From Miltoncostaea oceani (lineage in GTDB: Bacteria > Actinomycetota > Thermoleophilia > Miltoncostaeales > Miltoncostaeaceae), in the NCBI RefSeq assembly GCF_018141545.1, contig NZ_CP064356.1, forward strand, positions 186,001 to 250,000: DNA of 64,000 nucleotides, given 5' to 3'. The position numbers and the translations under genes are program-made. Below are positions 28,440-60,312 of the stretch, one piece after another. A model generated the notes under the pieces. That model was not told the origin of the DNA, made no database searches, and saw only the letters and a program-made list of their open reading frames with translations. The first letter of the stretch is position 1. The number at the start of each line of letters is the position of its first letter.

Positions 28440-28523
28440 GGGGCCGATTATGGACCGTGGCCACGGACGTCGTCGTCACGGGACGTGACGACTTGCGCCC
28501 CAGATTGCTCCAGGATCAGGCAC

Positions 28524-40506: not shown

Positions 40507-41027
40507 GTCACCACTCCCAACCGGTCGCGGAGGTCTGTCATCGCGCGAGCGAGCCGCGATTGGGCGGTGCCGATCGGGACCCCGATGAGCTCGGCCGACT
40601 CGGCGAGGCTGTAGCCGAGCCAGTGGTGGAGCACCACGATCGTGCGCCGGTCGGCGTCCAGGCCACGGATCGCCGCAGCGACCTCGGCCTTGCGTGAGGA
40701 CTCCTCCCAGTCGGCTGCCAGCTCGTCCTGATCGAGATCGACCTCCCGCGCGCGTCGCCGTTTCGTCTTGCGCAGATGGTCGAGGCCCTGATTCACGGCG
40801 ATCCGCCGAAGCCACGCGCCGAACTCGCCCTCTCCCGACCACGCCGACAGCGAGCAGAACGCCCGCTCGAAGGACGCTTGGGCGACATCGTCGGCCGCAG
40901 GGCGATGAGCGGTGATCCCGAACGCGACCCGCCAGACCGCGTCGAAATGCCGCGCGACGAGCGCCTCACCCGCGCCGGCGTCTCCGGCCAGGGCGCGCTG
41001 AACCAGTGTGGAGTCGTCATCGGTCAC
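40503..41027 (-). CDS. ECF sigma factor (cassette 1)
   Basis: A 174-residue extracytoplasmic-function sigma factor from GTG 41027; the longer frame upstream is not conserved. Region 2 has a VWRVAFGITAHRPAADDVAQ helix, ERAFCSLSAW and WLRRIAVNQGLDHLRKT. Region 4 has the RRTIVVLHHWLGYSLAESAE and GVPIGTAQSRLARAM recognition helix. No region 3 is present. It is read with, and overlaps, the SecD-like anti-sigma gene. It belongs with cassettes 4, 6 and 7 by its region 4 pattern WL(G/D)(Y/L/F)...E.AE. Confidence 0.88.
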   Translation of the reverse strand: MTDDDSTLVQRALAGDAGAGEALVARHFDAVWRVAFGITAHRPAADDVAQASFERAFCSLSAWSGEGEFGAWLRRIAVNQGLDHLRKTKRRRAREVDLDQDELAADWEESSRKAEVAAAIRGLDADRRTIVVLHHWLGYSLAESAELIGVPIGTAQSRLARAMTDLRDRLGVVT

Positions 41028-41130
41028 GTCACTGAGTCTGACGTCGGTGGGGTGCCCTCTTGTCCCGGCGGATCGCAAGTAGCAGCGACTCAGGAAGGGG
41101 CGCAGTCCCCGCCCGGCGTTGCTGGTCGCA

Positions 41131-41763
41131 TCAGAAGCCGGGCTGCGGAAGGGGCACGGTCCGCTCCGTGAGCACGTCATCCGCAGCATCCCGGAAGGTG
41201 AGCACGATCGTCTTCGGCCGAGCCGCGGTCAGCGTTTCCACCGGAATGCTGATGAGCATGTAGCCGCCACCTCGCGTGGCCCGGACCCCGGGAAGGCTCG
41301 CCTCCACCGCTGCGACCTCATCGGTCGTCCGAACGACGATCCGCGTGGGGTGCGTGGCGCGGCGGCCGTCGGATGCGCCATAGCTGCCGCAGATCGCGAC
41401 AGGGTCCGGCACCTTACAATCGAAGGTTGTCGAGCCGACGAAGCCGCTGTCGGGTCGTGCATCGATCACGACGCTCGTCGGCCCGGACGGACCCCCGCGC
41501 TCACCGGTGAGCACGAGTTCCGCCTCGGGATCCTCGAGCGAGAAGCCGGGAAGAGCTCCTCTCACGGCCGCCGCGCCGGCTCCGGCGAGGGTGACGGCCA
41601 CGACGGCGATGAGAAGCCCCCGTCGCCGCGGGGCGCGTCTCCTTCGGTTCACGTGCGCCGGGGAGTCGGCACGGTCTCCAGCAGTGGCCCGGAGCGTCTC
41701 GACGAGGCGCTCGTCGAACACCGGTGGCGTCTGCACCTCCGGGATACCAGGGGGCAGTGTCAT
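41131..41763 (-). CDS. Membrane anti-sigma-like protein (cassette 2)
   Basis: A 210-residue protein whose ATG overlaps the stop of the sigma gene at 41760 (ATGA). The cytoplasmic segment (1-48) is rich in Arg at its end. One membrane span follows (LLIAVVAVTLAGAGAAAV), then about 140 external residues with two cysteines, which form the C-x-C-like pair in FDCKVPDPVAICGSYG. The external fold is not recognised. By position and topology it is likely the anti-sigma factor of cassette 2. Confidence 0.7.
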   Translation of the reverse strand: MTLPPGIPEVQTPPVFDERLVETLRATAGDRADSPAHVNRRRRAPRRRGLLIAVVAVTLAGAGAAAVRGALPGFSLEDPEAELVLTGERGGPSGPTSVVIDARPDSGFVGSTTFDCKVPDPVAICGSYGASDGRRATHPTRIVVRTTDEVAAVEASLPGVRATRGGGYMLISIPVETLTAARPKTIVLTFRDAADDVLTERTVPLPQPGF

Positions 41764-42353
41764 CGTTTGGCGCTCCTGGTTGTGCTGACGGCGGGCGCGA
41801 CGACGAGCTCATCGGCCGCGGCTCGCGCGAGCTTGCGTCGCGCCCGCGACAGGCGCATCCGGGCGGCGGCCGGTGCGATGCCGAGCACATGAGCCGCCTC
41901 CCGCGGCGTCAGGCCATCGGTCCCGACCAGCATCAGCAGCTCGCGCTCGGACCTTGGAAGATCGGCGATCGGTCCGGCCAGGCGGCGAGCGAGCCGGGAC
42001 GCGTCGATCTGATCGTCGATGAGCTGGCGGTCGTCGTCGGAGAGGAGATCGCGCCCACGGAGGGCGGCGAGTCCGCGCGCCTCCCGCACGCTGCGCCGGC
42101 GTCGAGACGACAGCTCGTGGTGGGCGATGCCGATCAGCCAGGCGACAGCGGATCCCTTGCGTGGGTCGAACCGGTGAGCGGATTCCAGCGCCGCGAGGAA
42201 GGCGGCGGCGACGATGCCGGCCGCCTCGTCGGCGTTGCGGCATCGTGCGATTGCGTATCGCCAAACGCTGGTGGCGTGACGCCGATAGAGGGCTTCGATC
42301 GCGTCGGCGTCGAGCCCGCCCGAGATAGTTCGTGTTGAGGCGGCCCGCGTCAT
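41760..42353 (-). CDS. ECF sigma factor (cassette 2)
   Basis: A 197-residue sigma factor taken from ATG 42353; an upstream in-frame ATG at 42470 would add 39 residues of low-complexity sequence. Region 2: DADAIEALYRRHATSVWRYA, then AGIVAAAFLAALE and AWLIGIAHHELSSRRRR. Region 4: LPRSERELLMLVGTDGLTPR and VLGIAPAAARMRLSRARRKL. It lacks the WLGY-type region 4 of cassettes 1, 4, 6 and 7 and belongs to a second sigma type with cassettes 3 and 5. It overlaps its partner by four bases. Confidence 0.87.
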   Translation of the reverse strand: MTRAASTRTISGGLDADAIEALYRRHATSVWRYAIARCRNADEAAGIVAAAFLAALESAHRFDPRKGSAVAWLIGIAHHELSSRRRRSVREARGLAALRGRDLLSDDDRQLIDDQIDASRLARRLAGPIADLPRSERELLMLVGTDGLTPREAAHVLGIAPAAARMRLSRARRKLARAAADELVVAPAVSTTRSAKR

Positions 42354-42642
42354 CGCCCGATGATTGGTCTGGGGCGGCTCGAGCGCAACGTCGGGTCGTG
42401 GCTCTTGCACTCCTGCCGCCTGGGCAGCCCGAGGGCCCAACTCCCACGCCTGCCGGCGCCGAAACGGCATGCTCCAGTGGCAACTGATTCAGGCTCGAGT
42501 CGACGAGCGCGTTGCCCGCATACACCCGGGTGGCGGCCGAGGGTGCAGCTCTCCGGCGTCCAGTCGGCCTTGGGGTTCCGTGGGAAGAGCATCCTGACCC
42601 CTGACGGAACGGTTGGCTTCTCAGCGGTGGAGGACCGAACCC

Positions 42643-43806
42643 TCAACCCCAGCCCGGTGAGAGTCGCACCCGCATAGCCGCACTGGAGGTGGAGCCCGCT
42701 TCATACGTCACGAGGATGAGGATCTTCGCGGTGACCGGAGGATCACCGGTCCATGTCGTCCCGCCGTTCTGCGCCGGGATCCGCAGCGGACCGTCGATGA
42801 GTCCCGCGGGCTGGAGGAAGCCCGCGAACCTCCTGCGGCGACCGTCCTTCAGGGGTCCGCTCCAGCGCGGATCACCGAGCACCACGCGACGGCCCGCGAT
42901 CTTGGCGACGACCCGGAGGGCGGGCTTGCGCAACCAGATCATGAGGCCGACCCGGTCGCACGCGAACGAGCTCGCGGGTGAGCAGACGACGCCCAGATAG
43001 GGAGGGCGGGTTTGCAGCAGTCGGGCCTGCGAGCCGAACGGCTCGACCTTCACCGGAGGGAGTGGGCCGCCGATCTCCACCGGTATCGACTCGCGCCAGG
43101 CGGTGACCACGCCGTCGCTCGTTCGGTAGTCGATCACAGCCCGCCTGGTCAGGGGATCGAGGGCGGCGTGGAAGACGTTCCCGACGACCGGGAGCACCCG
43201 CCCGTTCACCGATACCTCGACGATCGCGTCGGGAACGAGCCCGTAGACGATGTGCGCGTTGTCGAGCACCTCCCCACCGGCGAGCGACACACGCGGCTGC
43301 CCGGGCGGTCCACATCCCGACGAGCCACCTCCGCGGCTGCCCAGGACGCGCGTGCAGATCGCCCCCGCCGACGTCTTTGCGAGGATGTAGCGATTGCCGG
43401 CCTCCGAGTCGGCCAGGCGGACCGTGTCCGGGACGACGCGCTCGGGGTACTGACCGTCGACAAGCGACGCTTCATCCCCGGTCTGGGCTCGATCGAAGAT
43501 GCCGTAATGGATCGAGGGCGGGGCGACGCTCGCCGTGGGCGAGTCCTCCCCTCCGTGTACGAAGAGGAGCAGCCCCGCCACTAGCGCCACGAGTGCACCT
43601 GCTCCGGCGACGCTCATTGTGCGACGCGTCAGGCCCGCGACGCGACGCCGCCGTGTCGTCGCACGCACGGGCGCCTCGGACAGGATGCGAGCGAGCGTCT
43701 GGCGCGCAGCGGACGACTCCCCGGCGCCGGAAAGAGCCTCCGCCGACACCGGGTCGGCCTGGCGGAGCGCGCGGTCGGCTCGCTCGAGATCCGCGGTCCG
43801 CCTCAT
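42643..43806 (-). CDS. Membrane anti-sigma-like protein (cassette 3)
   Basis: A 387-residue protein that overlaps the cassette 3 sigma stop (ATGA). A cytoplasmic helical segment (1-65) is followed by one span (SVAGAGALVALVAGLLLFV) and about 300 external residues. The outer part opens HYGIFDRAQTGDE, and has a cysteine-containing AICTRVLGS and a GLVPDAIVEVSV strand, a pattern that recurs in predicted sensor proteins of Solirubrobacterales, to my recollection. It has no catalytic motif. It is most likely a sensor and anti-sigma factor. Confidence 0.7.
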   Translation of the reverse strand: MRRTADLERADRALRQADPVSAEALSGAGESSAARQTLARILSEAPVRATTRRRRVAGLTRRTMSVAGAGALVALVAGLLLFVHGGEDSPTASVAPPSIHYGIFDRAQTGDEASLVDGQYPERVVPDTVRLADSEAGNRYILAKTSAGAICTRVLGSRGGGSSGCGPPGQPRVSLAGGEVLDNAHIVYGLVPDAIVEVSVNGRVLPVVGNVFHAALDPLTRRAVIDYRTSDGVVTAWRESIPVEIGGPLPPVKVEPFGSQARLLQTRPPYLGVVCSPASSFACDRVGLMIWLRKPALRVVAKIAGRRVVLGDPRWSGPLKDGRRRRFAGFLQPAGLIDGPLRIPAQNGGTTWTGDPPVTAKILILVTYEAGSTSSAAMRVRLSPGWG

Positions 43807-44354
43807 CGGGTCCCCTCCTGGTCTGGCGTGGTGATCGGCCCCGTGGGCTCCGGGATCGCCCGGTCCGGGCCGAGAGCAGCGGCGAACCGGCGCCGGGCGC
43901 GGTGAAGGCGGACGCGGAACGCGGTCTCGGTGCACCCGCACACCGCGGCCGCCTCGGCGCGCCCGAGCCCATCCCATGCCGTCAGGAGGAGGGCCTCGCG
44001 CTCCCGCGCCGTCAAGCGCGTGAGGGCGCTGCGGACCGCGTCGCCAGTGTGATCCGGGGGAGCACCGCTCGCCGTCCGGGCGTCCTCTTCCAGGCGTGCG
44101 TGGAGACCCTCCCGCCGTCCCTCGGCACGCCGCTGATTGGCGAGCGTGCGACGTGCGACGCCAAGCAGCCACGGCCGGGGCTCGGCGGGCACATCGGCCA
44201 GGCGGCGCCAGGCGACCGTGAAGACCTCGGCGGCGACATCCGCCGCGACGTCGTCGGGCGCCCGTCGTCGCCCGTAGGCCAGCACCGCCGCGTAGTGCTC
44301 GCGCCAGAGGGCTTCGAGTCGGTCGGCATCGCGGTCGCGGTCGTCCATGTCCAT
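43803..44354 (-). CDS. ECF sigma factor (cassette 3)
   Basis: A 183-residue sigma factor from ATG 44354 (MDMDDRDRDADRLEALW); a longer open frame upstream lacks sigma character. Region 2: AVLAYGRRRAPDDVAADVAA, EVFTVAWRRLADV and WLLGVARRTLANQRRAEGRR. Region 4: LTAREREALLLTAWDGLGRA and VCGCTETAFRVRLHRARRRF. The region 4 cysteine pair (CGC) is unusual and could be redox-sensitive. It belongs to the second sigma type with cassettes 2 and 5. It overlaps its partner by four bases. Confidence 0.87.
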   Translation of the reverse strand: MDMDDRDRDADRLEALWREHYAAVLAYGRRRAPDDVAADVAAEVFTVAWRRLADVPAEPRPWLLGVARRTLANQRRAEGRREGLHARLEEDARTASGAPPDHTGDAVRSALTRLTAREREALLLTAWDGLGRAEAAAVCGCTETAFRVRLHRARRRFAAALGPDRAIPEPTGPITTPDQEGTR

Positions 44355-44629
44355 CCGGTCAATGTCCGGCAGGAAGGCCCACGTTACGCGGCTCGTTCCC
44401 GATTGAGTGGAGGAGGCCGGGCGGCACGGGCTGGTTGGCCCCGACGGACCGGTGACCGCGGTCCTGGCCCCGGCAGCTGCCGATGACGAGCCGTGAGCGT
44501 CATGCGCGCAGCTTCGTCGGTCCAAGCGCCCCAGCCCGCCCCAGGCAGCCCGCGGGCCGAGCTTGTTGAGCACCATGAGGCTCGAGGGCGAGCACGCGGG
44601 GGTGCTGCGGTGCCCGTAAGGTTTCTACC

Positions 44630-45916: not shown

Positions 45917-47290
45917 CTACCGGCTCTCGGAGACCGAGATGTCGATAGGGCCGCCGTTCGGATTGGTGAGGGTCGCCCAGGCCGCGATGCGAGTTCCCTC
46001 CGCCGATCCGGCGTCGAGCGGCCACGTGTTCTTGGCATGGGGAGCGACGACGGTGGCGCTCGACCAGGTGCCGGATCGGTCCATCGATGCCGAGACCACA
46101 TCGGCGCTCGACTGAGGGGCAAGCGACAGCAACCGTGACCAGAGGGCCGTGGGCGACTGCCCTCCGGCCAGGGAGAGGCTCGTCGAGGGCGGGCCGCGGT
46201 AGAGGCCCGGGCCGGCCGGGAGCGTGAAGGTGTCGAGGACCGCAGGTGGTGAGGGGGCTCCGGGGTTCGCCCCCAGTCGCGCGGCACGGATCGTGATGCT
46301 CTCCGACGGGACGGCCCATCGCACCCATGCGACGACCAGACCCTCGGCATCCGGTTGGGCCACCACGGTGCCGAAGCCGTTGACCGGGCCGCGGTCCAGT
46401 TCACTCGCTTCACTCCAGTCCACCCCGTCCGCCCGGCTTGCGACGAGCGCCGTCGCACCTCGTGCAGGACGCGCCCACATCAGGTTGAGACGCCCCTGAG
46501 CGTCGTAGGCGAGCGTCGGTTGCGCGCTGTCAGCGACGGAGGGATCGGGCAGCGCCATGTCACGCCAGAGCGCTCCGGCTGCCTCGCTTCGCGTCACAGC
46601 GAGCTGCAGCCGGGGCTTCGCGGAGCTGCCGCGGTTGATCGACGTCGCGAGGACCGCCTCTCCGCCCGGGCCGACGACCAGCTCGGGTGTGCTGAATACG
46701 TCGCCTGTATCCAGTACGGCGACGGGGTCGCTCCACCCCGCGGATGACCGGCGCGCCACGGAGATCGCGCCCCGTGGCCCCAGCGTGCTCCAGGCGACGA
46801 CGGCCTCCCCGTCTTGCCCGATGGCCGCCTTCGGAAAGTAGGACCCGCTGATGACGGGTGCGATGACCTGGGGCTCTCCCCAGCGCCCGCCGGCGGGGCG
46901 GACGCTCGCCAGCAAGACGGTTCGTGAGCGGCTCCAGAAGGCGAAGGCGACGACGCCATCGCCTCGCTGATTGACCGCCATGGAGATGTCGCGGATGCGC
47001 CACAGCTGGGAATCGACGATCGGCGCGGGGGTGCTCCAGCGGCCGCCGAGCGGGCGTTCTGCGCTCATGAGCGCCCACTGCCCACCGCTGCGCTCGGACC
47101 AGACGGCAACGCTCGTACCGTCGTCGCTGGTCGCGCTCTCAGTGCTGCCGACGAGTCCGGCCGGGGAGAGGGTCACCGGTGCGCTCCATCCCGCCGGTGA
47201 GTCATCAGCCCGAAGAACGACGATCACGAGCGCCGCGACCGCGACCGCGACCGCGACCGCGACGCCGAGTGTCATCCACCGGCGCGTCAT
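45917..47290 (-). CDS. Membrane-anchored beta-propeller-like protein (cassette 4, second)
   Basis: A 457-residue protein whose ATG overlaps the stop of the gene upstream (ATGA). It has almost no cytoplasmic segment: MTRRWMTLG, then one span (VAVAVAVAVAALVIVVL). Outside are about seven repeat units with patterns such as WSAPVTLS, DGTSVAVWSERSGGQW, GQDGEAVVAWSTLG and GPGGEAVLATS, typical of a WD/sialidase-like beta-propeller. Its short N terminus could not wrap a sigma factor, so it is likely an accessory sensor to the gene at 47287. Confidence 0.7.
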   Translation of the reverse strand: MTRRWMTLGVAVAVAVAVAALVIVVLRADDSPAGWSAPVTLSPAGLVGSTESATSDDGTSVAVWSERSGGQWALMSAERPLGGRWSTPAPIVDSQLWRIRDISMAVNQRGDGVVAFAFWSRSRTVLLASVRPAGGRWGEPQVIAPVISGSYFPKAAIGQDGEAVVAWSTLGPRGAISVARRSSAGWSDPVAVLDTGDVFSTPELVVGPGGEAVLATSINRGSSAKPRLQLAVTRSEAAGALWRDMALPDPSVADSAQPTLAYDAQGRLNLMWARPARGATALVASRADGVDWSEASELDRGPVNGFGTVVAQPDAEGLVVAWVRWAVPSESITIRAARLGANPGAPSPPAVLDTFTLPAGPGLYRGPPSTSLSLAGGQSPTALWSRLLSLAPQSSADVVSASMDRSGTWSSATVVAPHAKNTWPLDAGSAEGTRIAAWATLTNPNGGPIDISVSESR

Positions 47291-48843
47291 CCGCCACCGC
47301 CGCGGGCAGGAGGCGATCCATCGGCCACCGCGACGATCACTGCCGGTGACGAGCCACCGCCGACCCAGGCGAGCGCGCTCGTGCCGTCCTGGCCGATCGC
47401 GAGCGCCAGATGGAAGCTGACGCCGTCGATTCTCGCCCGCTCGATGGCGCCCGACAGCCCGGCGCGACGCTCGACGACGCTCTGATTGGGCTCGATCGTG
47501 CCGCGCACGAGGACGGTCGCGCGCGAGGGGTCCACGCCGAGGGCCGCCGAGAACGGCCGACCGGCCACAGGGCGTAGGGCGAGGGGCTCCCATTCACCGC
47601 CGACCGGTGCCTGGAAGGCGGACGACGAGTCGGGCAGCAGAACGGCGGTTCCCCCGTCGGCCATGGCAGCGAGCGCGCGCAGGTCGTTGAAGCCAGGGGC
47701 GGTCCGGCCGACGAGCGTCTCCGTGCTCCAGGCTCCCGAGGCATCGGCCGTGACCGCCCAGATGACCCCGGGCTGGTCGAGGTTGCGGGTGCCGCTCCAG
47801 GCGGCGACCGCCGTGCCGGCGGAGTCGATGGCCGTGGCCGGATAGGGCGGGTTGATCGTGGGCGTCCCGATCTCCGACGAAGCGCCCCACCCCGGGCGAG
47901 TCCCAAAGCGCGCGACCTGGAGCGTGTAGCGACGCTCGAGCCCCTGTCCGGCCCGGTTCGACCAGATGAGCGCGGCCCGCCCGGAGGGATCGATCGACAG
48001 CTGCGGGTCGACCGCCTCGCCAGGGCCGGATCCGACGCGCACCGGCGTCAGCCACGCGCCCGAGCTCGTGCGGGTGGACGACCAGACGGCGCCTCCCTGG
48101 TCCCAGGTCGCGACGCTCGAGCCGTCGGCGAAGACCCCGAGGCCCGGCGATTCCAGATCGCGGACGGTTGCGCTCTGGGGAGACACGTCCTCCGCGGCGC
48201 CCCAGACGCCCTCGGCCGAGCGGTGGCGCCCGACCACGGCCCAGCGGCGTGCGACGAGATCCGATAGCTCACCCGCCGGGGCGCCGCTCGGCAGCCGGAA
48301 GGTCTGGGTGATGCGCCGTCCCGCCGTGCGCTCACGCCAGATGACGGTGGTCCCGCCCTCGGCGTCCGAGCCGATCGCCGGGTAGGAGGCGCGCCGTGAC
48401 GGGTCGGAGATCCGCTCGGGCTCCGACCAGGCGGCTCCGGGCAGGCGTGTCGCGACGACGATGCGGCCCGCGCGGGCCCACGCCACCGTCACCGTCCCGC
48501 GTCCATCGATCGCGAGCACCGGTGGGCCGTCGATCTGACTGACCGGCCGACCGACGACCTCGGGGGCCCCGAACGAGAGAGAAGCCGCCGGCCCGCGCGC
48601 AGGCTCCGAGCCGCCGCGGCTGATCAGCGTCGCGGCGACGGCGGCGCCGGCCGTCAGCAGCAGGGCTGCGGCGACGAGCAGGCGCGAGCCGTGGCGCGGC
48701 CGCGGCGCGAGGGCCGCCCACCGGCGCGCGGGTGAGGATGGCGCCTCGATGCCGATCGCCGCGCGGGCGCGTGCCTCGGCGCGCTCGCTCGGCTCCGGCC
48801 AGGCCGGGCGCACATCGCGAAGCTGCTGCTCGAGGTCAGGCAC
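47287..48843 (-). CDS. Anti-sigma-like protein with beta-propeller-like sensor (cassette 4)
   Basis: A 518-residue protein from GTG 48843, which overlaps the sigma gene by eight bases. The cytoplasmic segment (1-50) starts PDLEQQLRDVRPAWPEPSER, like the partners of cassettes 6 and 7. One membrane span (RLLVAAALLLTAGAAVAATL) leads to about 440 external residues of propeller-like repeats (AIDGRGTVTVAWARAGRIVV, SIDPSGRAALIWSNRAG, AIDSAGTAVAAWSG). It is the likely anti-sigma factor of cassette 4 and is followed by a second propeller protein. Confidence 0.72.
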   Translation of the reverse strand: MPDLEQQLRDVRPAWPEPSERAEARARAAIGIEAPSSPARRWAALAPRPRHGSRLLVAAALLLTAGAAVAATLISRGGSEPARGPAASLSFGAPEVVGRPVSQIDGPPVLAIDGRGTVTVAWARAGRIVVATRLPGAAWSEPERISDPSRRASYPAIGSDAEGGTTVIWRERTAGRRITQTFRLPSGAPAGELSDLVARRWAVVGRHRSAEGVWGAAEDVSPQSATVRDLESPGLGVFADGSSVATWDQGGAVWSSTRTSSGAWLTPVRVGSGPGEAVDPQLSIDPSGRAALIWSNRAGQGLERRYTLQVARFGTRPGWGASSEIGTPTINPPYPATAIDSAGTAVAAWSGTRNLDQPGVIWAVTADASGAWSTETLVGRTAPGFNDLRALAAMADGGTAVLLPDSSSAFQAPVGGEWEPLALRPVAGRPFSAALGVDPSRATVLVRGTIEPNQSVVERRAGLSGAIERARIDGVSFHLALAIGQDGTSALAWVGGGSSPAVIVAVADGSPPARGGGG

Positions 48844-49360
48844 GGGGGGTCTCCGCGAGTCGTTCGCGCAGATCGGCCAGCGCGCGGGAGAGGCGGGAGT
48901 TGACCGTGCCGAGGGGAAGCTCGAGGGCCTCGGCGATCTCCGGCGGGGTGAGATCGAGCCAGTAGCGCATCACGATGACCGAACGACGCTCCACGGGCAG
49001 GCGGGCGACCGCCGCCTGCAGGTCACCGTCCGCGTCCGACCGGTCGACCCACTCCACGCTCGGGCTGTCATGGTCCTCGAGGTGGGTGAGGCGCCCTTCC
49101 GAGCGCAGGACGTCGATCGCACGCCGGGTGGTGATCTGTGCGATCCATGCCCCGAAGCGCGCCGGCTCCCCGAGATCGCCGAGCTTGGCGAAGGCGCGCA
49201 CGAACGCATCCTGGGCGATGTCATCGGCGAGTGCCCGGCGCCCTGAGACGGCGAAAGCGCGTCTCCAGACCGACGGCCAGTGCCGACGAAAGAGCTCCGC
49301 GCGCGCCTCGGGCACCCCGTCGCGGGCGCGTTCGACAAGACCCTGGTCGTCAGATCGCAT
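48836..49360 (-). CDS. ECF sigma factor (cassette 4)
   Basis: A 174-residue sigma factor from ATG 49360 (RSDDQGLVERARDGVPEARA). Region 2: RRHWPSVWRRAFAVSGRRAL, DIAQDAFVRAFAKLGDL and WIAQITTRRAIDVLRSEGR. Region 4: RRSVIVMRYWLDLTPPEIAE and LELPLGTVNSRLSRALADLR. The region 4 is close to those of cassettes 6 and 7. It reads leftward and is divergent from cassette 5, with a 439-base gap between them. Confidence 0.9.
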   Translation of the reverse strand: MRSDDQGLVERARDGVPEARAELFRRHWPSVWRRAFAVSGRRALADDIAQDAFVRAFAKLGDLGEPARFGAWIAQITTRRAIDVLRSEGRLTHLEDHDSPSVEWVDRSDADGDLQAAVARLPVERRSVIVMRYWLDLTPPEIAEALELPLGTVNSRLSRALADLRERLAETPRA

Positions 49361-49799
49361 GAGGTCCACACACTGTCTGACGAGCGAGGTGGGCGAACGC
49401 GTCCCGGTGTCGCGCGCCGCCGGCGGCCAAATGCCGCCGCCCCTGTTCCCCGGCATCCGGACGTGGCCCTCGGCGCCCGCAGGGATGGATCGGTGGGTGG
49501 CCGGATGTTTTTCGGCACACCGATGATGTCCAGGCCACCGACGCGCGAACACGCCAAGAGAGCGGCCGGTGCCGCTCTCTTGGCCTGGATCTCGGATCGT
49601 GACCACAGCCGCTCCGCCGGTCGGGCATGCCGAGACCGGCACGCGCTCGGATCCGACGATCAGCGCTGCAGACGGGGCCGATGGGAAACGGGTGCTGACC
49701 CGAAGTTGGCCTGGAGGGTCGAGTGCGGAGGACGCCTAAACAGAACCCGCATCCCCGGTGTCTGTATGGATGGGACGAGTCACCGAGCGGGAGCGGTCG
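49361..49799. other. Divergent control region with a long perfect hairpin
   Basis: The 439 bases between the divergent cassettes 4 and 5 have no supported gene. They hold the inverted repeat at 49553-49584: GCCAAGAGAGCGG and CCGCTCTCTTGGC, a perfect 13-base stem with a six-base loop. A candidate ECF-like element is AGAACCC near 49742-49748 with CTGTATGGA about 15 bases further on, upstream of cassette 5. Both cassettes must be controlled from here. Confidence 0.5.
49553..49584. repeat. Perfect 13-base inverted repeat (hairpin)
   Basis: Arms at 49553-49565 and 49572-49584 with a six-base loop CCGGTG. The stem is longer than most terminators here and has no T run on either side. It lies centrally between two divergently read cassettes, where it could be an operator, a transcription insulator or a bidirectional terminator of antisense RNA. 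Confidence 0.6.
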
Positions 49800-50333
49800 A
49801 TGGATGCGGGTGTCGTGACAGAGCAGCAGTCGATCCACAACGGTGGCGCCACGGCGGAGGATCTCGAGGAGCTCTATCGCGCCCGACTCGACGTGTTCGT
49901 GCGGGTCGCGGCGGCGATCACCGGCGACCGCGATTCCGCCCGCGATGCGGTCCACGATGCCTTCGCGGCGTCCCTTCGCGATCTCGCAGCCTTCCGGCGG
50001 GAGGCGGCGCTCGAGAGCTGGGTCTGGACCGCGGTAGTCAACAGCGCGCGCAATCAGCGTCGCGGGCGCCGCCGGCGTCTGCGGCATGAGGACCCCGCAG
50101 CCACACCTGAGGCGACGGCCACCGCCGTTCCGCCGCTCGACCCTGAGATCCGGGCCATGGTCGCCGCGCTCCCGGAGCGGCAGCGCCTGATGCTGTTCCT
50201 GCGGTACTTCGCAGACCTCGACTACGCGACGATCGGAGCCGTCACGGGTGTGAGCACGGGAACCGTCAGCGCGACGCTCAGCGCCGCTCATTCCGCTCTT
50301 CGAACGGCCATGGAGACAGGAGGGCACCGATGA
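49800..50333 (+). CDS. ECF sigma factor (cassette 5)
   Basis: A 177-residue sigma factor from ATG 49800, chosen for a GGGAG ribosome site; GTG 49758 would extend it by 14 residues. Region 2: LEELYRARLDVFVRVAAAIT, RDAVHDAFAASLRDLAAF and WVWTAVVNSARNQRRGRRR. Region 4: LPERQRLMLFLRYFADLDY and TGVSTGTVSATLSAAHSAL. It is of the second sigma type. Its partner starts inside its stop codon (ATGA). The basic run RRGRRRRLRH follows region 2. Confidence 0.87.
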   Translation: MDAGVVTEQQSIHNGGATAEDLEELYRARLDVFVRVAAAITGDRDSARDAVHDAFAASLRDLAAFRREAALESWVWTAVVNSARNQRRGRRRRLRHEDPAATPEATATAVPPLDPEIRAMVAALPERQRLMLFLRYFADLDYATIGAVTGVSTGTVSATLSAAHSALRTAMETGGHR

Positions 50334-50893
50334 CTGACGGCCGCGACCCCGAGGTCATGGCTCTGCTGGACCGGCACACGCCGGATCTCGACGAGCGATC
50401 AGATTGGCCGCGCGTGCTGCGGGAGGCGAAGACGGCCCGACCGACTCCCTCTCGCAGGTTCCGGCACCTCCGCTGGATCCCGACCGTCGTCGGCGCAGTC
50501 GGTCTCGCTGCTCTCATCGGGGCCCTGATCATCGCTACGCCGACCGGACGCGAGACGAGTGCGCCGCCGACCGCCGGCACGGCCAAGCCGATCACGACGG
50601 TCAGGGCCTACCTCCGAGACGAGGCAACGATCGCCGAGGTCGGGCACCTCAGAGCCGCCCTCGCCCGGCTGCTGAAGGACGGCCGCATCACCTCGTTCCG
50701 TTACGAGTCGAAGAGCGCCGCCCTTGAGCGCCTGCGTTCGCGTCTGAAGAACCCATCAATCCTCGATGAGTTGCCCGCGAACCCGGTGCCCGCGAGCTTC
50801 GTCGTCGATCTCGCCCCAGGGATTGGAGGTAAGGGTCTCGCTCGGGTGCTGGCCTCGGAGCCCGCGATCGATTCAGGGCTCGGGGTCCGATGA
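50330..50893 (+). CDS. Anti-sigma-like protein with FtsX extracellular domain-like sensor
   Basis: A 187-residue protein with a cytoplasmic segment (1-49), one span (TVVGAVGLAALIGALII, about 52-69) and an external domain at 90-176. That domain follows the FtsX extracellular domain closely: VRAYLRDEATIAEVGHLRAA, then RITSFRYESKSAALERLRSR, ILDELPANPVPASFVVDL. In FtsX this domain binds and activates peptidoglycan hydrolases at division. FtsX's other membrane helices are absent. It overlaps the sigma gene by four bases, so it is probably its anti-sigma factor with a borrowed sensor. No zinc-binding anti-sigma motif is present. Confidence 0.75.
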   Translation: MTDGRDPEVMALLDRHTPDLDERSDWPRVLREAKTARPTPSRRFRHLRWIPTVVGAVGLAALIGALIIATPTGRETSAPPTAGTAKPITTVRAYLRDEATIAEVGHLRAALARLLKDGRITSFRYESKSAALERLRSRLKNPSILDELPANPVPASFVVDLAPGIGGKGLARVLASEPAIDSGLGVR

Positions 50894-51174: not shown

Positions 51175-51702
51175 ATGAACGTCTCCCCGAGCGATGAAGA
51201 ACTCGTTGGCGAGGCTCGCGCCGGGTCGCGCGATGCGGCCGGACGTCTCTTCGATCGGCACTGGCGCGTGGTCTGGCGGGCCGCCTACGCAGTCTCGGGC
51301 AGCTCGGAGGGAGCCGAGGATTGCGCGCAGGACGCATTCATGCGGGCCTTCGCCCACCTCGGCGACTACCGCGGCCCGAGCTTCCGGGCGTGGGTCACCC
51401 GTATCGCCGTGAACAGGAGCCTCGACCACCTCCGCCGCGCGCGACGCCTCACGCCGATCAGCGAGGAGACCGTCGATCCCTCGGTGAGGATGCCCGCCCC
51501 CGACGCGGCCCTCGATCGGGCGCTCCGGGATCTGTCCGCCGACAAGAGGGCGATCGTCGTCCTGCGCTTCTGGCTCGGATACAGCCCTCCCGAGGTCGCC
51601 GATCTGCTCGGACTGCCGCTCGGGACGGTCCACTCGCGTCTGTCGCGCGCGCTCAATCAGCTGCGAGAAGACCTGGAGGTGACCGATGTCGAGCGAGCTT
51701 GA
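51175..51702 (+). CDS. ECF sigma factor (cassette 6)
   Basis: A 175-residue sigma factor from ATG 51175 (NVSPSDEELVGEARAGSRD). Region 2: DRHWRVVWRAAYAVSGSSE, DCAQDAFMRAFAHLGDY and WVTRIAVNRSLDHLRRARR. Region 4: KRAIVVLRFWLGYSPPEVAD and LGLPLGTVHSRLSRALNQLR. It is a close paralogue of the cassette 4 and 7 sigma factors. It overlaps its partner gene by 17 bases. The 281 bases upstream contain no gene. Confidence 0.9.
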   Translation: MNVSPSDEELVGEARAGSRDAAGRLFDRHWRVVWRAAYAVSGSSEGAEDCAQDAFMRAFAHLGDYRGPSFRAWVTRIAVNRSLDHLRRARRLTPISEETVDPSVRMPAPDAALDRALRDLSADKRAIVVLRFWLGYSPPEVADLLGLPLGTVHSRLSRALNQLREDLEVTDVERA

Positions 51703-53056
51703 AGAGCGACTCCGTCGCGCGGGTGGGGATCTCCCCGAGCCCCCGGCCGAGGCGACGGCGCGCATCCGGTCGGCAGCCCTCGAGAGCCTCTCCGCTCCCC
51801 TCGTGCCGTCCCGCCTTCGCCGCACCGCCGTCGCGCTTCGCAGGCCGATCGGGATCCTTGCGACGGCGGGTGCCTTCGGGGGTATCGCCGTCCTCCTGGG
51901 ACTCCTCATCGTCGCAGGGCCTTCCTCGGAGGACCCTGTTCCCGGATCGCTCCGTCCCGACCTGTCCTCCCTTACGAGTGTGCGCACCTGTCTGGAGCCG
52001 CGACTGCGCGAGCCCTGTGTGGCGGGCACGCCGCAGGTGCGCGCCGCGACGCCTGCCCTCCGCAACGCACCCTGGCTCTACGGCACCCCCGTGCGTCGAC
52101 TCGGAAGCGAGCGGCCGCGCCCCTCGCTGATCTTCCCGGCGGGAACCACTTACGGGCAGGCACTCGATGCCCTCTATGTCTCGGCTGTCCTGACCGGGGC
52201 CCTGCCCCCCAACACGACCCTCGGTCCGCCTCTGCCGCAGGGCGCGGTGTTGCTCCGACCGACAGATCCCGCTCAGGGGATCGCCATCGACCTGCGCGCG
52301 CCGTTCGGCTACACGCCTCCGCACGGCATGATCTTCGGCGCCATCTACTCCGGGACGCCGAGTGGGCCGACACGCGGCCGCCTCTGGCCACCCGGGCTGC
52401 GGATCGCCGTGCCGACGCTGCCCGTGTGCATGATCATCAGCAACCGCGCCTCGGTACCGCCGAAATGCGGCCCGAGTGACGGGCCGAGCATTCGCGGAAC
52501 TGACCGCAGCATCCAGGCGCTTCCGAAGGTCATGGTCGCCGCGGATCTCGTCCCCGGCTATGCGTCCGTGGCCGGGCCCGTGGTCAGTCGCTCGCCGGCG
52601 AGCTGGTTCTCGGGAGCCCGGATCGGGGTGGGGTCGGCCGACGGCGTGCTGGCGGACTCCCCGGTCGTATTCGTCACATCGAGCGGCCCGGTGCTCGTCG
52701 GGAGGGTCACGAAGGCGTCATCGAGGACGGCAGAGGTCGCGTTCATCACGGACGGTCGCTCCGTCGTGGGCGCGACGGTCTCCAGAGCAGGGAGCCGTCC
52801 AGGAGTTCTGCGGTCTCCCGCGGTCGGGAAGCTGGTCTTGGAGCGAGTCCCGGGAAGCATGTCTGGCGAGGTCGTCGTGACGAGTGGTCTCGCCGCCGGC
52901 ACGGGACCCTCGATCTATCCCCGGGGCTTGAGGATCGGACTCGTGGCGCGAGTAGGTGACCCGGGGTCGCGGCCAGGCCAGGAGATCGAGGTCGTCCCGA
53001 CGCGGGACCCCGGCTCGCTCACCGAACTAACCGTTCTCGTGCCCCGAACTGGCTAA
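51686..53056 (+). CDS. Anti-sigma-like protein with MreC-like sensor
   Basis: A 456-residue protein. The cytoplasmic segment (1-53) opens SSELEERLRRAGGDLPEPP; one span lies at about 55-78. Residues 147-209 form a module shared with the cassette 7 partner (SLIFPAGTTYGQAL, RAPFGY). Residues 300-453 read like the beta-sandwich core of MreC: GSADGVLADSPVVFVT, LVGRVTKASSRTAEVAF, GEVVVTSGLAAGTGPSIYPRG, LRIGLV and LTVLVP. MreC scaffolds the cell elongation machinery. The coiled coil of true MreC is missing. It is likely the anti-sigma factor of cassette 6. Confidence 0.75.
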   Translation: MSSELEERLRRAGGDLPEPPAEATARIRSAALESLSAPLVPSRLRRTAVALRRPIGILATAGAFGGIAVLLGLLIVAGPSSEDPVPGSLRPDLSSLTSVRTCLEPRLREPCVAGTPQVRAATPALRNAPWLYGTPVRRLGSERPRPSLIFPAGTTYGQALDALYVSAVLTGALPPNTTLGPPLPQGAVLLRPTDPAQGIAIDLRAPFGYTPPHGMIFGAIYSGTPSGPTRGRLWPPGLRIAVPTLPVCMIISNRASVPPKCGPSDGPSIRGTDRSIQALPKVMVAADLVPGYASVAGPVVSRSPASWFSGARIGVGSADGVLADSPVVFVTSSGPVLVGRVTKASSRTAEVAFITDGRSVVGATVSRAGSRPGVLRSPAVGKLVLERVPGSMSGEVVVTSGLAAGTGPSIYPRGLRIGLVARVGDPGSRPGQEIEVVPTRDPGSLTELTVLVPRTG

Positions 53057-54107: not shown

Positions 54108-54629
54108 ATGAAGACCCTGACCGACAGCGAGCTGGTTCTCGCCATCAGAGCGGGATCGAGGGAGGCCGCCGACGATCTGTTCGCTCGCCACTGGCCGCGG
54201 GCGTGGAAGGCGGCCTACGCGGTCCTCGGGGACCGCCCCGCCGCCGACGATGCCGCCCAGCGCGCGGTGGAGCGGGCCATCCGCGCCCTCGACCAGTTCC
54301 GCACCGATGGCTCGTTCGGCGCCTGGATCGGCCGGATCGCGGTCAACCAGGCGATCGACATGCTGCGGCGCTCGCCCCGCGATGCTCCCCTTCCCGAGGC
54401 GCTGTCCGCACCCGAGGTCTACGCCGAGATCCTCGAGCGCGACGCGCTGCTCGCGGCCGTCGCCCGGCTCGACGAGGACCGCCGGGTCGTCGTCGCCCTG
54501 CGCTATTGGCTCGACTTCGACCCGCCGGAGATCGCCGAGCATCTCGGCATCCCGATCGGGACGGTCTCCTCGCGCCTGTCGCGCGCCCTGTCGGACCTAC
54601 GCGGAATCCTGGAGGTACCCGAGCCATGA
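54108..54629 (+). CDS. ECF sigma factor (cassette 7)
   Basis: A 173-residue sigma factor from ATG 54108 (KTLTDSELVLAIRAGSREAA). Region 2: RHWPRAWKAAYAVLGDRPA, DAAQRAVERAIRALDQF and WIGRIAVNQAIDMLRRSPR. Region 4: RRVVVALRYWLDFDPPEIAE and LGIPIGTVSSRLSRALSDLR. It is a close paralogue of cassettes 4 and 6. The upstream GTATGGATAGG is very near the start, so it is either a -10-like element of a leaderless mRNA or a poor ribosome site. Confidence 0.9.
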   Translation: MKTLTDSELVLAIRAGSREAADDLFARHWPRAWKAAYAVLGDRPAADDAAQRAVERAIRALDQFRTDGSFGAWIGRIAVNQAIDMLRRSPRDAPLPEALSAPEVYAEILERDALLAAVARLDEDRRVVVALRYWLDFDPPEIAEHLGIPIGTVSSRLSRALSDLRGILEVPEP

Positions 54630-56302
54630 GCGATCTCGAGACGCGCCTCCGCGCGATCGGAGAGCTCCTTCCCGACCCCGACGAGCGGGCGACCGAGGCG
54701 GGCCGACGGGCGATGCACGACGCACGCGCGTCAGCGCCCTGGGCCACCGGCCGGCGCAGGTCGTGGTTCGCCTCGCGCGGGCCGCGCACCTACCTGATTG
54801 CGGCGGCGCTGGCGCTCGCCGTCGGCGGCGGGGCGCTCGCGGCGGGTGGCTGGGGCATCTCCGACCTGCCGCCCTTCGGCGACGACGACCGCTCCGCCTT
54901 CGTGCTGCCGGCCACCGACATCCTCCCCGGTGGCTACGAGCGCACACGCCCGCCGACGTACGCGGACCTGCCCGAGCGCCCGTCTCTGCTCTTCCCGGCG
55001 GGCGTGGGCTACACGGAGGCGCTCGCGCGCTACTCCGCCGCCCGGCAGGCCGGCCGGATCCTGCCGGAGGGCGTCGAGCTCACCGATCCCCTGCCGGCGG
55101 GCAAGGTGGTGATGGTGCGCTCCGACGGCCGCGTCGCCCTCGACCCGGCCGCCCCCTTCGGCTACTCGGCGACGACCGGGCTCGTTACCACCCTGAGCGC
55201 ACTATTCGACGGGCGGGCGATACCGATCGCCCGCTGTCAGCTGCTGATCGGCGCGGACGATCCGGCCTCGCCGGCCTGCGACCAGGCCGGCGTGCGGCGC
55301 GCCTATGTACGCGAGGGCGTCGCCGGGCGCTGGGTGCCCTCGCCCAACGAGGAGGCGGTCTTCGATCGGCTGACCCCTGCGAGCACCGAGCTCTCGGTGA
55401 TCGACCGGCCGACGACCCCACTGGTGCGGCTCCCGTCGACCCTGCCGCTCGCAGAGCCCGGCTCGGGGGCGGCCGCGCCCCGCGTCGGCAGGCTGGCCCT
55501 CGAGACCCCGGACGTGCGCCTGATCGTCGTGCCGGTCGAGCCGGACCGCCTCTGCTTCATCGCGCAGGAGCGGGCGGGGGGAGCCGGCTTCTCCTGCGGC
55601 CCGAGGGCGACCTTCCTCAACCGGGGCGCCTCGCTCAGCGGGGGGCGCTACATGAACGGCCCCTATCGCCTGAACGGCCTCGTCGGTGACGGAATCGACC
55701 GCGTGAGCACCGATGACGGCACCGTCGTGCGTGTGACCAACAACGCCTTCACGATGCTGCCGAAGCCCACGGCCCGCGTGCTCACCTTCAACGGACCGGT
55801 CGGCTCGTTCCGGATCGCGGTACCGCGCTTCGGTGATGGCGGGCCACCGCGCTTGACGCCGGATCGCTCGAAGCAGCGCGAGCTGCTCGGCGTCGATCTC
55901 GCAGATGGCGGCCGCGCGTCGATCCGGGTCGCGCCGAACCGCGGAGGTGGCCGGTGCGTCTGGGTCTACGTGAAGAAGAACTCGCGCAGCTTCGCGTGCA
56001 GTCGGCCGGGCGACTCACCATCGCTTCCCGACGATCAGGTGACCGGGAGCTTCATCCGTCGCATCGACCGGATCCCCTCGCTCTTCCAGGGCCAGTTCTC
56101 GTCGCGAGTCGGCTCGGTGGAGATCGCGTATGCGGACGGCACTGCCACCCGCCTGCGTCCGACCGAGGGCTACGTGCTCTACGAGGTGCCTGCGGCGCAT
56201 ATGACCAAGGAGCGGCGGGCGGTCTCGGTGACGACCTTCGATCAGCAGGGGGTCGCGTTGGTGAGGGAGGAGGTGCGCCGCCCGGGGTCCCTCAGACCAT
56301 GA
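54626..56302 (+). CDS. Anti-sigma-like protein (cassette 7)
   Basis: A 558-residue protein whose ATG overlaps the sigma stop (ATGA). The cytoplasmic segment (1-54) opens SDLETRLRAIGELLPDPDER, the same motif as in cassettes 4 and 6. One span (TYLIAAALALAVGGGALAAG) lies at about 55-74. Residues 119-180 are the module shared with the MreC-like protein (SLLFPAGVGYTEALARY, LPAGKVVMV, AAPFGY). The remaining 370 residues contain paired cysteines and repeated units but no recognised fold. It is the likely anti-sigma factor and sensor. Confidence 0.75.
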   Translation: MSDLETRLRAIGELLPDPDERATEAGRRAMHDARASAPWATGRRRSWFASRGPRTYLIAAALALAVGGGALAAGGWGISDLPPFGDDDRSAFVLPATDILPGGYERTRPPTYADLPERPSLLFPAGVGYTEALARYSAARQAGRILPEGVELTDPLPAGKVVMVRSDGRVALDPAAPFGYSATTGLVTTLSALFDGRAIPIARCQLLIGADDPASPACDQAGVRRAYVREGVAGRWVPSPNEEAVFDRLTPASTELSVIDRPTTPLVRLPSTLPLAEPGSGAAAPRVGRLALETPDVRLIVVPVEPDRLCFIAQERAGGAGFSCGPRATFLNRGASLSGGRYMNGPYRLNGLVGDGIDRVSTDDGTVVRVTNNAFTMLPKPTARVLTFNGPVGSFRIAVPRFGDGGPPRLTPDRSKQRELLGVDLADGGRASIRVAPNRGGGRCVWVYVKKNSRSFACSRPGDSPSLPDDQVTGSFIRRIDRIPSLFQGQFSSRVGSVEIAYADGTATRLRPTEGYVLYEVPAAHMTKERRAVSVTTFDQQGVALVREEVRRPGSLRP

Positions 56303-57664: not shown

Positions 57665-58612
57665 TCAGCGATCACGCCCGGAGATCGGCGGGTTCCCGCG
57701 CGCCAGTCGCTCGTTGGCCAGCGGACGCGCCACCACGTGCGGCGCTTCCCTGGCGCGCGGCTCGATCGACAACCCCAGCCCGTCTTCGAGCCGGGAGGCG
57801 ATGCGGTGCACCGCCTCGGCGTAGGCCGCCATCTCCTTGGGCGCCGCCTCGGCCCGCCCCGCCACGTACGGGACCGCTTGCCCTGCAGTGTCGAGCCTCA
57901 CCGCTGACAGCGCAACGAAGGCGGCGGTCTCGGCGACCACCTCAGCACCCGCGCGTCCAAACTCCTCATATCGAGCGCCGTGCACGTGGGCTAGCTCATG
58001 GACGAGCACCGCGACCTGTCCGTTCGGCTCGAGGGCCGACGAGAGCACGATCTGCTTGGTGCGGTGATCGACGAACCCCTCCGCATGGCCCGGCATCTGC
58101 CGGCGTCGCTCGACGACGTACCCGGCCTCTGACGCCTGTCGCTCCAGGCAGGTCGACAGATGAGCGTGCGAGTGGCCCGACAGCGCTATGACGGGAGGCG
58201 GCTCCGGGAGCGGCGGGCCGTCAGTCTGGGAGATGTCGAACACCGGCACCAGCACGAAGGCCCGCACCGAAGTCGTCTCGTCGCCGGTCGCCTCGTCGCG
58301 CTCGCGCCGCATCGAGGGAGCCCAGATCCGGAGCGACCGCTCACCTCGTCGCACCTGGCGCCCCAGCTCGCTCCAATGGCGGAAGCTCGCAACGGTGGTC
58401 GCGTCGGGACGCTGAGCGAGGATCAGCAGGGTGTTGTTCAGCGAGTAGCCGCGAAGGAGGGCCCGCGCCTTCGCGAAGCGCTGCCACCCCTCCGAGCTGC
58501 GCAGCTCGTTGCAGGCCGCCTCGAGGTGCGCACGCGCCTTCTCCCGGCGTTCTTCCGCCTGCTGGGCGACCGCCTCGCGCGATGGCCGATGTCCGCTCCC
58601 GCGAGGCGTCAT
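57665..58612 (-). CDS. ArdC-like antirestriction protein with zinc-peptidase motif
   Basis: A 315-residue protein. The N-terminal domain is of the ArdC/LtrC ssDNA-binding type (GWQRFAKARALLRGYSLNN, then WSELGRQVRRGERSLRIW). The second half has a zinc-metallopeptidase-like helix LVHELAHVHGA, with an HExxH-like pattern (HELAH), and a later Glu (VAETAAFVAL). ArdC proteins travel with conjugative DNA and protect it from restriction. The gene overlaps the coupling protein gene by four bases and belongs to the leftward transfer operon. Confidence 0.8.
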   Translation of the reverse strand: MTPRGSGHRPSREAVAQQAEERREKARAHLEAACNELRSSEGWQRFAKARALLRGYSLNNTLLILAQRPDATTVASFRHWSELGRQVRRGERSLRIWAPSMRRERDEATGDETTSVRAFVLVPVFDISQTDGPPLPEPPPVIALSGHSHAHLSTCLERQASEAGYVVERRRQMPGHAEGFVDHRTKQIVLSSALEPNGQVAVLVHELAHVHGARYEEFGRAGAEVVAETAAFVALSAVRLDTAGQAVPYVAGRAEAAPKEMAAYAEAVHRIASRLEDGLGLSIEPRAREAPHVVARPLANERLARGNPPISGRDR

Positions 58613-60312
58613 CGTGTCCCGCCCTGGGGCGCGGCCAGTCCTCGGAGGGAGCGTTCGCGGTACCAGGGCCGAAGGGAGAGCCGAGCCGGCGGAAGGTGGC
58701 CATAGACCAGGATCGCCTCCCCCGGGGCGATCCCCCGTACGGCGTCCGCCGGGGCAAGCCGTCGCGTGCGGGTGCCCCGCGTGCGGCTTGTGCTCCCGCG
58801 CTCGCCGCGTGTGCGGCTCTCGTAGCCCACCTCCTCATCGCCGAGGGCGCGGCCGAGGTACTCGAGCGTCCGCCCATCCGAGATGCCGGACAGGAAGAGC
58901 TTGGCCCGGTGGTTGGCGAGGATCGTGTCGGCCGCCTCGCCATAGCGCGAGCGCGCCTGAGCCAGGTCCTGGAACACCGTCACCACCTGGATTCCCTGAC
59001 CGGCCGCGGTCGCTGCGATCTGGGGAAGGTTGCGGATCGGCGCCGTGTTGGCCGCCTCATCGAGCACCACCAGCAGCGATGGACCACACGGCCGCCCGGC
59101 GGCCGCTCGCGCATAGGCCGCATCGACGACGTGCTCGACCAGGCCGGCGAACAGGGGAGCCAAGCGCTCCTGATCCTTCGCCGGGGCGACGATGTAGAGC
59201 GTGTTCCGACCGTCGAGTAGAGCCCCGGTATCGATGCCATGACGGGCCGTGCTCTCGAGCACCGCCGGATCGGCGAAGGGCGCGAGCACCGCCTCGGTGG
59301 TGGCATAGACCGACGACAACGTCCGCTCCTCCCGCCGGCAGGTGGCCGTGAAGGCGGCATGGGCGTCGGGCTCACCGAGATCGAGCAAGAGGTCGGCCAC
59401 CACCGTCTGCTCACCCGAGTCGACCCAGCTCACGACGTCGCGCATCGAGCCGTCGATCTTCCCCGCCGCAGCCAGGAGCAGTGGCGCGAGCAGCTTCGCG
59501 GCCATCTGGAGCCAGAACTCGGCGTCCCGGCTCCCCGAGGCCGCCTGGGCGCTCGTCAGGTTGTGGGCCATCCGGCGGGCGTCGGCCCACTCGACGCACG
59601 AGCGCACCGGATCCCAGCCGACGACGCGCTCGTCATCGAGGTGCGCGGCGCCGGTGGGGTCGTAGATCCAGACCTCGCCGCGGGAGCCTCGGGCGGCCAG
59701 AGTGCGATCGAGCAGGTCGCGCTTCACCGACACCGCGAGCACCGGCCCCGCCGCCTCGAGGATCGCGGGGATAGCCAAGCCCGCCGTCTTTCCCGACTGG
59801 CTCGGCCCGATCACGATCGTGCTGGCGCGCGGCTCGGTGGCGACGAGGCGTCGCCCGAGCCGGCCGAGCGTCAGCCGTCCCGGTTGCGCGCCTCGCACGA
59901 CGAGGGCCCGGAGGTCGCTCGCGCGGGCCCAGCGGGCCCCCGACTCGCCGCGGCTCGCGGGGGCGGCCCATGGCGCGCATCGTGCGACGCGCGCCGCCGC
60001 CAGGCCGACGGCCGCAAGGCCGCCGAGGACGGTCACCGTCACCGCGTAGAAGCCAGCGGGCCCCGGCAGGCGACTGCGGTCGGGCGCCGGCCAGGCGGCC
60101 GCCGGATCCGAGAGCGTGCTCGGCAGGCGCGAGAGCACGCCCGGCATCTGACCTAACCCGGCCGAGAGTGCTCCGTCCCCGAGGGCCAGCCCGGCGAGTT
60201 GGCCGATCCCCCAGACGATGAACGCGATTCCGAGGGCGCCGGCGGCGAGGGCGAACCCGATGCTGACCCACGGGTCGTCCGGCGACCCCGCGCCTCGATC
60301 GAGCGGCGACAC
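58609..60312 (-). CDS. Type IV coupling protein (VirD4/TraG-like)
   Basis: A 567-residue ATPase that brings relaxase-bound DNA to the conjugation channel. Two hydrophobic segments near the N terminus (about 18-45 and 88-110) anchor it. The ATPase core has Walker A GPSQSGKTAG, Walker B LLVVLDEAANT, and the TraG/VirD4 C-terminal box (VTVFQDLAQARSRYGEAA, TILANHRAKLFLSG). GTG 60312 is the start. It sits between the short gene at 60322 and the ArdC-like gene, with overlapping or close junctions. Confidence 0.92.
   Translation of the reverse strand: MSPLDRGAGSPDDPWVSIGFALAAGALGIAFIVWGIGQLAGLALGDGALSAGLGQMPGVLSRLPSTLSDPAAAWPAPDRSRLPGPAGFYAVTVTVLGGLAAVGLAAARVARCAPWAAPASRGESGARWARASDLRALVVRGAQPGRLTLGRLGRRLVATEPRASTIVIGPSQSGKTAGLAIPAILEAAGPVLAVSVKRDLLDRTLAARGSRGEVWIYDPTGAAHLDDERVVGWDPVRSCVEWADARRMAHNLTSAQAASGSRDAEFWLQMAAKLLAPLLLAAAGKIDGSMRDVVSWVDSGEQTVVADLLLDLGEPDAHAAFTATCRREERTLSSVYATTEAVLAPFADPAVLESTARHGIDTGALLDGRNTLYIVAPAKDQERLAPLFAGLVEHVVDAAYARAAAGRPCGPSLLVVLDEAANTAPIRNLPQIAATAAGQGIQVVTVFQDLAQARSRYGEAADTILANHRAKLFLSGISDGRTLEYLGRALGDEEVGYESRTRGERGSTSRTRGTRTRRLAPADAVRGIAPGEAILVYGHLPPARLSLRPWYRERSLRGLAAPQGGTR

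Follow-up and report, generated by a model that had tools for sequence, protein, structure and literature searches.

Directly behind an ECF sigma gene lies an open reading frame whose C-terminal part resembles the core of MreC, the scaffold of the elongasome, which raises the question of whether this resemblance reflects homology and what such a core would do on a protein linked to a sigma factor. The window analysed here is a stretch of 64,000 nucleotides of Miltoncostaea oceani DNA, and the gene, referred to hereafter as the AS-MreC gene, occupies positions 51686-53056 (+). The initial annotation described its product as an anti-sigma-like protein with an MreC core pattern at residues 300-453, without the coiled coil of MreC, and considered it a member of an array that mimics three envelope machines.

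The AS-MreC gene and the layout of its product

The AS-MreC gene codes for one protein of 456 aa, with an ATG start at 51686. The gene follows an ECF sigma gene at 51175..51702 (+), for which ATG 51175 is the likely start in a frame open from 51106; the two genes overlap by 17 nt, and a strong ribosome-binding site of the AS-MreC gene is located within the 3′ end of the sigma gene. The upstream product matched the Pfam profiles Sigma70_r2 (7.6e-17) and r4_2 (5.7e-14) and the NCBIfam model sigma70-ECF (93.9 bits against a cut-off of 42.9), and it is 62% identical to the sigma factor encoded beside the AS-MreC orthologue (P0003) of G020, a genome of the same genus.

The N-terminal 56 residues of AS-MreC (51686..51853, +) form a short, presumably sigma-binding cytoplasmic segment that is basic close to the membrane and partly helical by prediction, with two helices in the structural model. 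One transmembrane helix is predicted at residues 57-77 (51854..51916, +), with a hydropathy of 2.34 at residue 56 and basic residues on its N-terminal side; the single-pass topology with the N-terminus inside is derived from the hydropathy and the positive-inside pattern only. The middle domain, at residues about 110-283 (52013..52534, +; RPSLIFPAGTTYxxAL...), is common to many anti-sigma-like proteins of the family. In this genome, where the DNA read covered stretches near sigma genes, the mobile element and relatives, it recurs in many proteins encoded right after ECF sigma genes, and three of these consist only of the N-terminus, the transmembrane helix and the middle domain (258-272 aa). 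Pfam gives no family for this domain, and the confidence of the AlphaFold2 model is low there. A further homologue of the middle domain, at G000:C2:402514-403218 (-), contains two in-frame TGA stops and is possibly a decayed anti-sigma-like gene.

No anti-sigma domain was found by Pfam in the N-terminus of AS-MreC, and the NCBIfam anti-sigma match on the orthologue P0003 was weak (E 0.0028, below the cut-off). The N-terminus is loosely alike in paralogues encoded just after ECF sigma genes, and residues 1-282 are 48% identical to P0003, which also follows an ECF sigma gene. Gene order, predicted topology and a weak N-terminal similarity suggest that the N-terminus binds the sigma factor. A shared promoter motif was sought upstream of three sigma genes, and none was found.

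The barrel core of AS-MreC, residues 291-454 (52556..53047, +), is nearest to the MreCs of its own genus. The profile search against the MreC family that the initial annotation had proposed returned PF04085, the MreC barrel core, as the sole Pfam match in the protein (residues 299-451, E 2.9e-23, 82.7 bits against a cut-off of 28, profile positions 1-146 of 147), so that the residue range originally given was accurate. The sequence also matches solved MreC chains directly (2j5u, E 4e-9). MreC relatives were used in building the AlphaFold2 model, whose confident part is chiefly residues 290-456 (10-residue pLDDT blocks of 74-98, mostly at least 87), and the structure prediction, likewise suggested at the outset, gave an MreC fold. 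Foldseek with this model ranked MreC chains alone at the top (1.4e-11; 8e-6 for the PBP2-bound H. pylori MreC, 5lp5), followed by a sharp drop, and VIA-align gave Z 15.7-21.1 for all MreC chains compared with 8.6 for the best non-MreC chain. The profile match, the match to PDB sequences and the two fold comparisons rule out a chance likeness of motifs or a generic beta-sandwich, and confirm that the MreC core of AS-MreC is homologous to MreC.

That the membrane protein is anti-sigma-like and has a genuine MreC core but no coiled coil was also borne out, because the residues before the core (1-282) align with the anti-sigma-like P0003 and not with MreC. Full-length NCBIfam MreC models align to AS-MreC from about position 94 on, below their cut-offs; these cut-offs are likewise missed by the true MreCs of this clade, which nevertheless align from their own N-terminus. 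TIGR00219 aligned from position 121, with 32.5 bits against a cut-off of 92.75. Compared with MreC, AS-MreC shares the whole two-barrel core and the MreC fold at Z up to 21, but has neither the coiled coil nor the MreC membrane anchor, is encoded outside the mre operon on a putative mobile element, and carries a sigma-linked N-terminus. Glu188 and Arg190, lateral filament residues of P. aeruginosa MreC, are absent from AS-MreC and also from the true MreC of the genome, as judged by eye from alignments.

Source of the core and its occurrence in other genomes

The genome keeps an ordinary mreB-mreC-mreD-mrdA(PBP2)-rodA operon elsewhere; since this operon is intact, an MreC core has its natural partners in the cell. 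The core of AS-MreC shares 45-50% identity with the MreCs of the genus, and 45% with the true MreC of its genome. In a 28-row tree it grouped with the four MreCs of the genus (support 99/94), and the same grouping was obtained in a 71-row tree (89/95), which places its origin in the host lineage. Its branch is long, at 1.3 changes per column, indicating strong divergence from true MreC. Of the 31 columns in which the true MreCs of the family are conserved to 90% or more, the core retains 25, although its mean identity to the hosts is only 41%. Since the ordinary mre operon is kept and the core branches with the MreCs of the genus, the core looks captured from the host lineage, and the simplest reading of the sequences is that the core of a host-lineage mreC was duplicated, without its coiled coil, onto an anti-sigma-like gene.

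When about 500 genomes were searched with the MreC profile, one further fusion was found, in a genome of another genus of the same family (G009). This protein, of 423 aa, is encoded directly after an ECF sigma gene and matches the Pfam MreC profile with E 3.1e-19; the region between its transmembrane helix and its core differs from that of the AS-MreC of the window. The fusion is present in 2 of the 42 genomes of the order, in only one genome of its own genus, and nowhere else among the genomes sampled, in which the class is represented in part. A scan of a genome-contig collection with the whole AS-MreC protein gave no relative, and one with the MreC core gave 45 loci. A second genome with two complete MreC cores was sought among the 119 genomes of the phylum sample, and no other was found. 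In the literature search, we found no published anti-sigma factor bearing MreC.

Several other candidates were set aside. By their coordinates, the double MreC matches in G123, G154 and G351 are each one MreC split over fragments. Those copies of G271 and G266 that were fully read are ordinary MreCs with a transmembrane helix and a coiled coil, the second copy of G266 being judged by ORF length only, and G233 and G380 have two matches each, in ORFs whose length (298 and 318 aa) is usual for an MreC. Where MreCs elsewhere in the class lie in long frames, the extra length is upstream read-through of an ordinary MreC.

Whether the cores of the window and of G009 go back to one capture or to two was addressed by tree comparison. 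The G009 core is unstable in its position and has a terminal branch of 1.65. The best trees separate the two cores and favour two independent captures, while AU tests do not reject a single clade (p 0.065 and 0.16). Because one clade is compatible with the AU tests, and because both AS-MreC genes adjoin related sigma/anti-sigma pairs of one type, that of 54626 in the window, at the same tRNA, a shared ancestor with later re-capture or transfer is also possible.

A putative conjugative element and its sigma/anti-sigma pairs

The AS-MreC gene lies between repeats of a tRNA end, among mobile-element genes. ARAGORN identified a tRNA-Arg(CCT) at 19065..19137 (+), the integration site, whose 3′ end is part of a 47-bp exact direct repeat; the left copy is located at 19092..19138 (+) and the second, beyond the window, at G000:C1:262261-262307 (= L230:13262-13308). 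The region between them, 57,169 bp, extends from 19092 through the window end at 64000 and about 12.3 kb further, and its G+C content is 0.707, compared with 0.758 and 0.750 in the flanks. It encodes a TrwC-type relaxase with a helicase domain (33541..36975, +; Pfam 7.5e-71), a type IV coupling protein (58609..60312, -; T4SS-DNA_transf 2.3e-36), ParB and an ArdC-type protein, and, outside the window, a tyrosine integrase (L230:11962-13245, +; Phage_integrase 4.9e-25) whose ORF stops some 14 bp short of the right repeat. One TraG-like ATPase and an EccE-like gene are the transfer-channel genes found, and we regard the region as a putative integrative conjugative element. Both this location of the array and the host-lineage source of the MreC core go beyond what the initial annotation had noticed.

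The element contains other cargo. A restriction-type cluster at 22820-29983 comprises a ResIII/DEAD helicase (1278 aa), a C5 cytosine methylase, a Vsr endonuclease and an HNH/MTaX1 protein. An Abi_C protein (abortive infection C-terminus; Pfam 3.7e-19) is encoded at 53096-53800 (-), between the AS-MreC pair and the next pair downstream, and L230:10590-11687 (+), adjoining the integrase, shows a weak match to Glucosaminidase, a wall hydrolase family (7.7e-4, below the cut-off).

The same tRNA serves as an integration site in relatives. The AS-MreC pair of G009 is on an island of 11,995 bp that has its own tyrosine integrase, is bounded by 48-bp repeats of the same tRNA-Arg(CCT), and also carries a relative of the downstream pair of the window. 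One contig end of G020 is the right end of an element, with an integrase tail and repeat 93% identical to those of the window element at the same tRNA. Conservation of the left flank reaches as far as the tRNA in G019, and no element gene was found in the 10 kb read there. Among the 42 genomes of the order, a duplication of the tRNA end on one contig was seen in G000 (the genome of the window), G009 and G010. The G010 locus (L237, G010:C96:17000-27231) is apparently a remnant of a related island, with two tRNA-Arg end repeats, an integrase 36% identical to that of G009, and a fragment that shares 96% identity with the Schlafen-type protein of G009 across 46 aa.

AS-MreC is surrounded by similar pairs. 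Directly upstream of the AS-MreC pair, an ECF sigma factor (49758..50333, +; family profile match) is followed by an anti-sigma-like protein with the extracellular domain of FtsX (50330..50893, +); the match to FtsX_ECD (5.8e-9) reaches 36.9 bits against a cut-off of 23.5, and the domain is 37% identical to the host FtsX over 144 aa. On the reverse strand, an anti-sigma-like protein with weak similarity to SecD (38746..40506, -) is paired with an ECF sigma factor at 40503..41189 (-). In a BLAST search of five sequences against the host SecD, this protein matched with E 3.5e-6, and two of its paralogues matched SecD with 6e-5 and 0.002; Pfam, NCBIfam and TIGR01129 did not find a SecD family in it. 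For the three envelope machines said to be mimicked, then, the MreC and FtsX domains were supported, and the SecD part is a weak similarity with no family match.

The remaining pairs of the window show the same gene arrangement. Downstream, an ECF sigma factor at 54108..54629 (+) precedes an anti-sigma-like protein with the middle domain (54626..56302, +), of which a relative with 55% identity adjoins the AS-MreC gene of G009. Three further ECF sigma factors, at 48836..49642 (-; Pfam), 41760..42470 (-) and 43803..44576 (-), stand beside anti-sigma-like proteins at 47287..48843 (-), 41131..41763 (-) and 42643..43806 (-), respectively. The latter two are membrane proteins, and the first has a long, repeat-rich ectodomain for which a beta-propeller is suggested by eye only; its neighbour at 45917-47593 (-) also has a long repeat-rich ectodomain, with a weak BNR-repeat match (1.2e-7). 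A second dense array of sigma/anti-sigma-like pairs is located on contig C2 (L103, G000:C2:632500-649500, and L096, G000:C2:649500-657000); one of its products is a copy of the 54626 protein with 61% identity.

The orthologue P0003 of G020 (L146:7709-9061, -; identical with L004:1006-2358) carries a different C-terminal domain, a TlpA/ResA/DsbE-like thioredoxin fold with a WCEPC motif, at the position of the MreC core. This domain is nearest to the TlpA-like proteins of the genus itself (43-46%). The gene is flanked by chromosomal-type genes, e.g. Thy1, QRPTase and MFS.

Possible roles of the grafted core

The reading we consider most likely, and to which we give about an even chance, is an ECF sigma/anti-sigma switch on the putative element, in which the captured MreC core contacts the elongasome. 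If AS-MreC works as membrane anti-sigma factors do, its short N-terminus in the cytoplasm would hold the sigma factor until the protein is cleaved, and the domain common to the family, followed by the MreC barrel core, would be displayed outside the membrane. MreC binds PBP2 through a hydrophobic surface of its core and also binds other MreC molecules (PMC5626683, PMC8137920), with an affinity of 0.4 uM reported for PBP2:MreC of H. pylori (PMC5626683); because MreC binds PBP2 and self-associates through this core, the grafted copy would most likely dock on PBP2 or on MreC itself, a partner binding that its homology suggests. Altered elongasome assembly, or a drug bound to PBP2, might then lead to proteolysis of the anti-sigma protein and free the sigma factor for its presumed regulon.

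Such a sensing principle is plausible because of the RsiP/sigmaP-PbpP case of Bacillus thuringiensis (PMC8092216). In that system the PBP and the anti-sigma factor are distinct proteins, and no direct binding between them was seen (PMC8092216), whereas AS-MreC contains, as part of its own chain, a scaffold domain with the potential to bind a PBP.

The RseA, RsiV, RsiP and RsgI types of membrane anti-sigma factor, which act on ECF sigmas, are encoded by genes coupled to the sigma gene and have a short cytoplasmic N-terminus, one transmembrane helix and an extracytoplasmic C-terminus. AS-MreC, compared with them at the level of layout, has the same gene coupling and predicted topology, but no recognised anti-sigma domain, and what it displays as an ectodomain was copied from part of a host machine. 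In reusing a wall-synthesis domain as the extracellular input of a membrane regulator, AS-MreC would resemble BlaR1/MecR1 in principle. BlaR1 carries a copy of the drug target, to which the drug binds; what AS-MreC carries is a copied scaffold without enzymatic activity, and its output is presumably a sigma factor.

Alternatively, the core could be an effector: by competing with true MreC for PBP2, or by capping MreC filaments, it would tune wall synthesis, as during conjugation, for instance, with sigma control being secondary. A location on a putative conjugative element and a core without a coiled coil, as a competitor could be, are compatible with this, as is the proposal that self-association of MreC is an off-state (PMC8137920). 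However, in both genomes it is a membrane protein linked to a sigma factor that bears the core, its expression is coupled to that of the sigma gene, and a TlpA-like domain at the same position in the G020 orthologue fits the swapping of input domains better; we consider this role improbable.

We think it similarly unlikely that the core is a positioning or stability module, which brings the anti-sigma protein to growth sites or keeps its fold while the middle domain senses. That the middle domain is common to many such proteins, several of which end without a further C-terminal domain, would agree with this, and localisation could make use of the two partner surfaces of MreC (PMC5626683). Nevertheless, the AS-MreC of G009 keeps the core without this middle domain.

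That the core has become, by drift, a beta-barrel receptor of a general kind for some other ligand, and has lost contact with the elongasome, is also doubtful, to much the same degree. The long terminal branches of both cores and the loss of 6 (window) and 9 (G009) of the 31 conserved host columns point in this direction; most of these columns are kept, however, and neighbours with other host envelope domains are better explained by the reading of those machines. An artefact of the gene model or assembly, joining an mreC fragment to an anti-sigma gene, could account for a fusion in a single genome of the genus, but is hardly credible given one unbroken frame and a true mreC elsewhere that is only 45% identical, and is ruled out by the 100% complete 3-contig genome, the second case in another genus and a codon-position G+C that is even along the frame.

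Returning to a switch whose core contacts the elongasome, we tentatively extend it to the array, at less than even confidence: elements at one tRNA-Arg site may repeatedly take extracytoplasmic domains of host envelope proteins (MreC, FtsX, possibly SecD, and TlpA in a relative outside the known island) and mount them on sigma/anti-sigma pairs, as a panel that reads wall synthesis, division and secretion.

The orthologues of G020 and G000 amount to a natural domain-swap experiment, with TlpA and MreC on one anti-sigma frame. If the graft binds PBP2 or MreC, AS-MreC would be a natural reporter of the state of the elongasome wired to transcription, which is otherwise hard to obtain, and its parts would be of use for wall-synthesis reporters in laboratory strains. 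It would also demonstrate that mobile DNA turns copied scaffold domains of its host into sensors.
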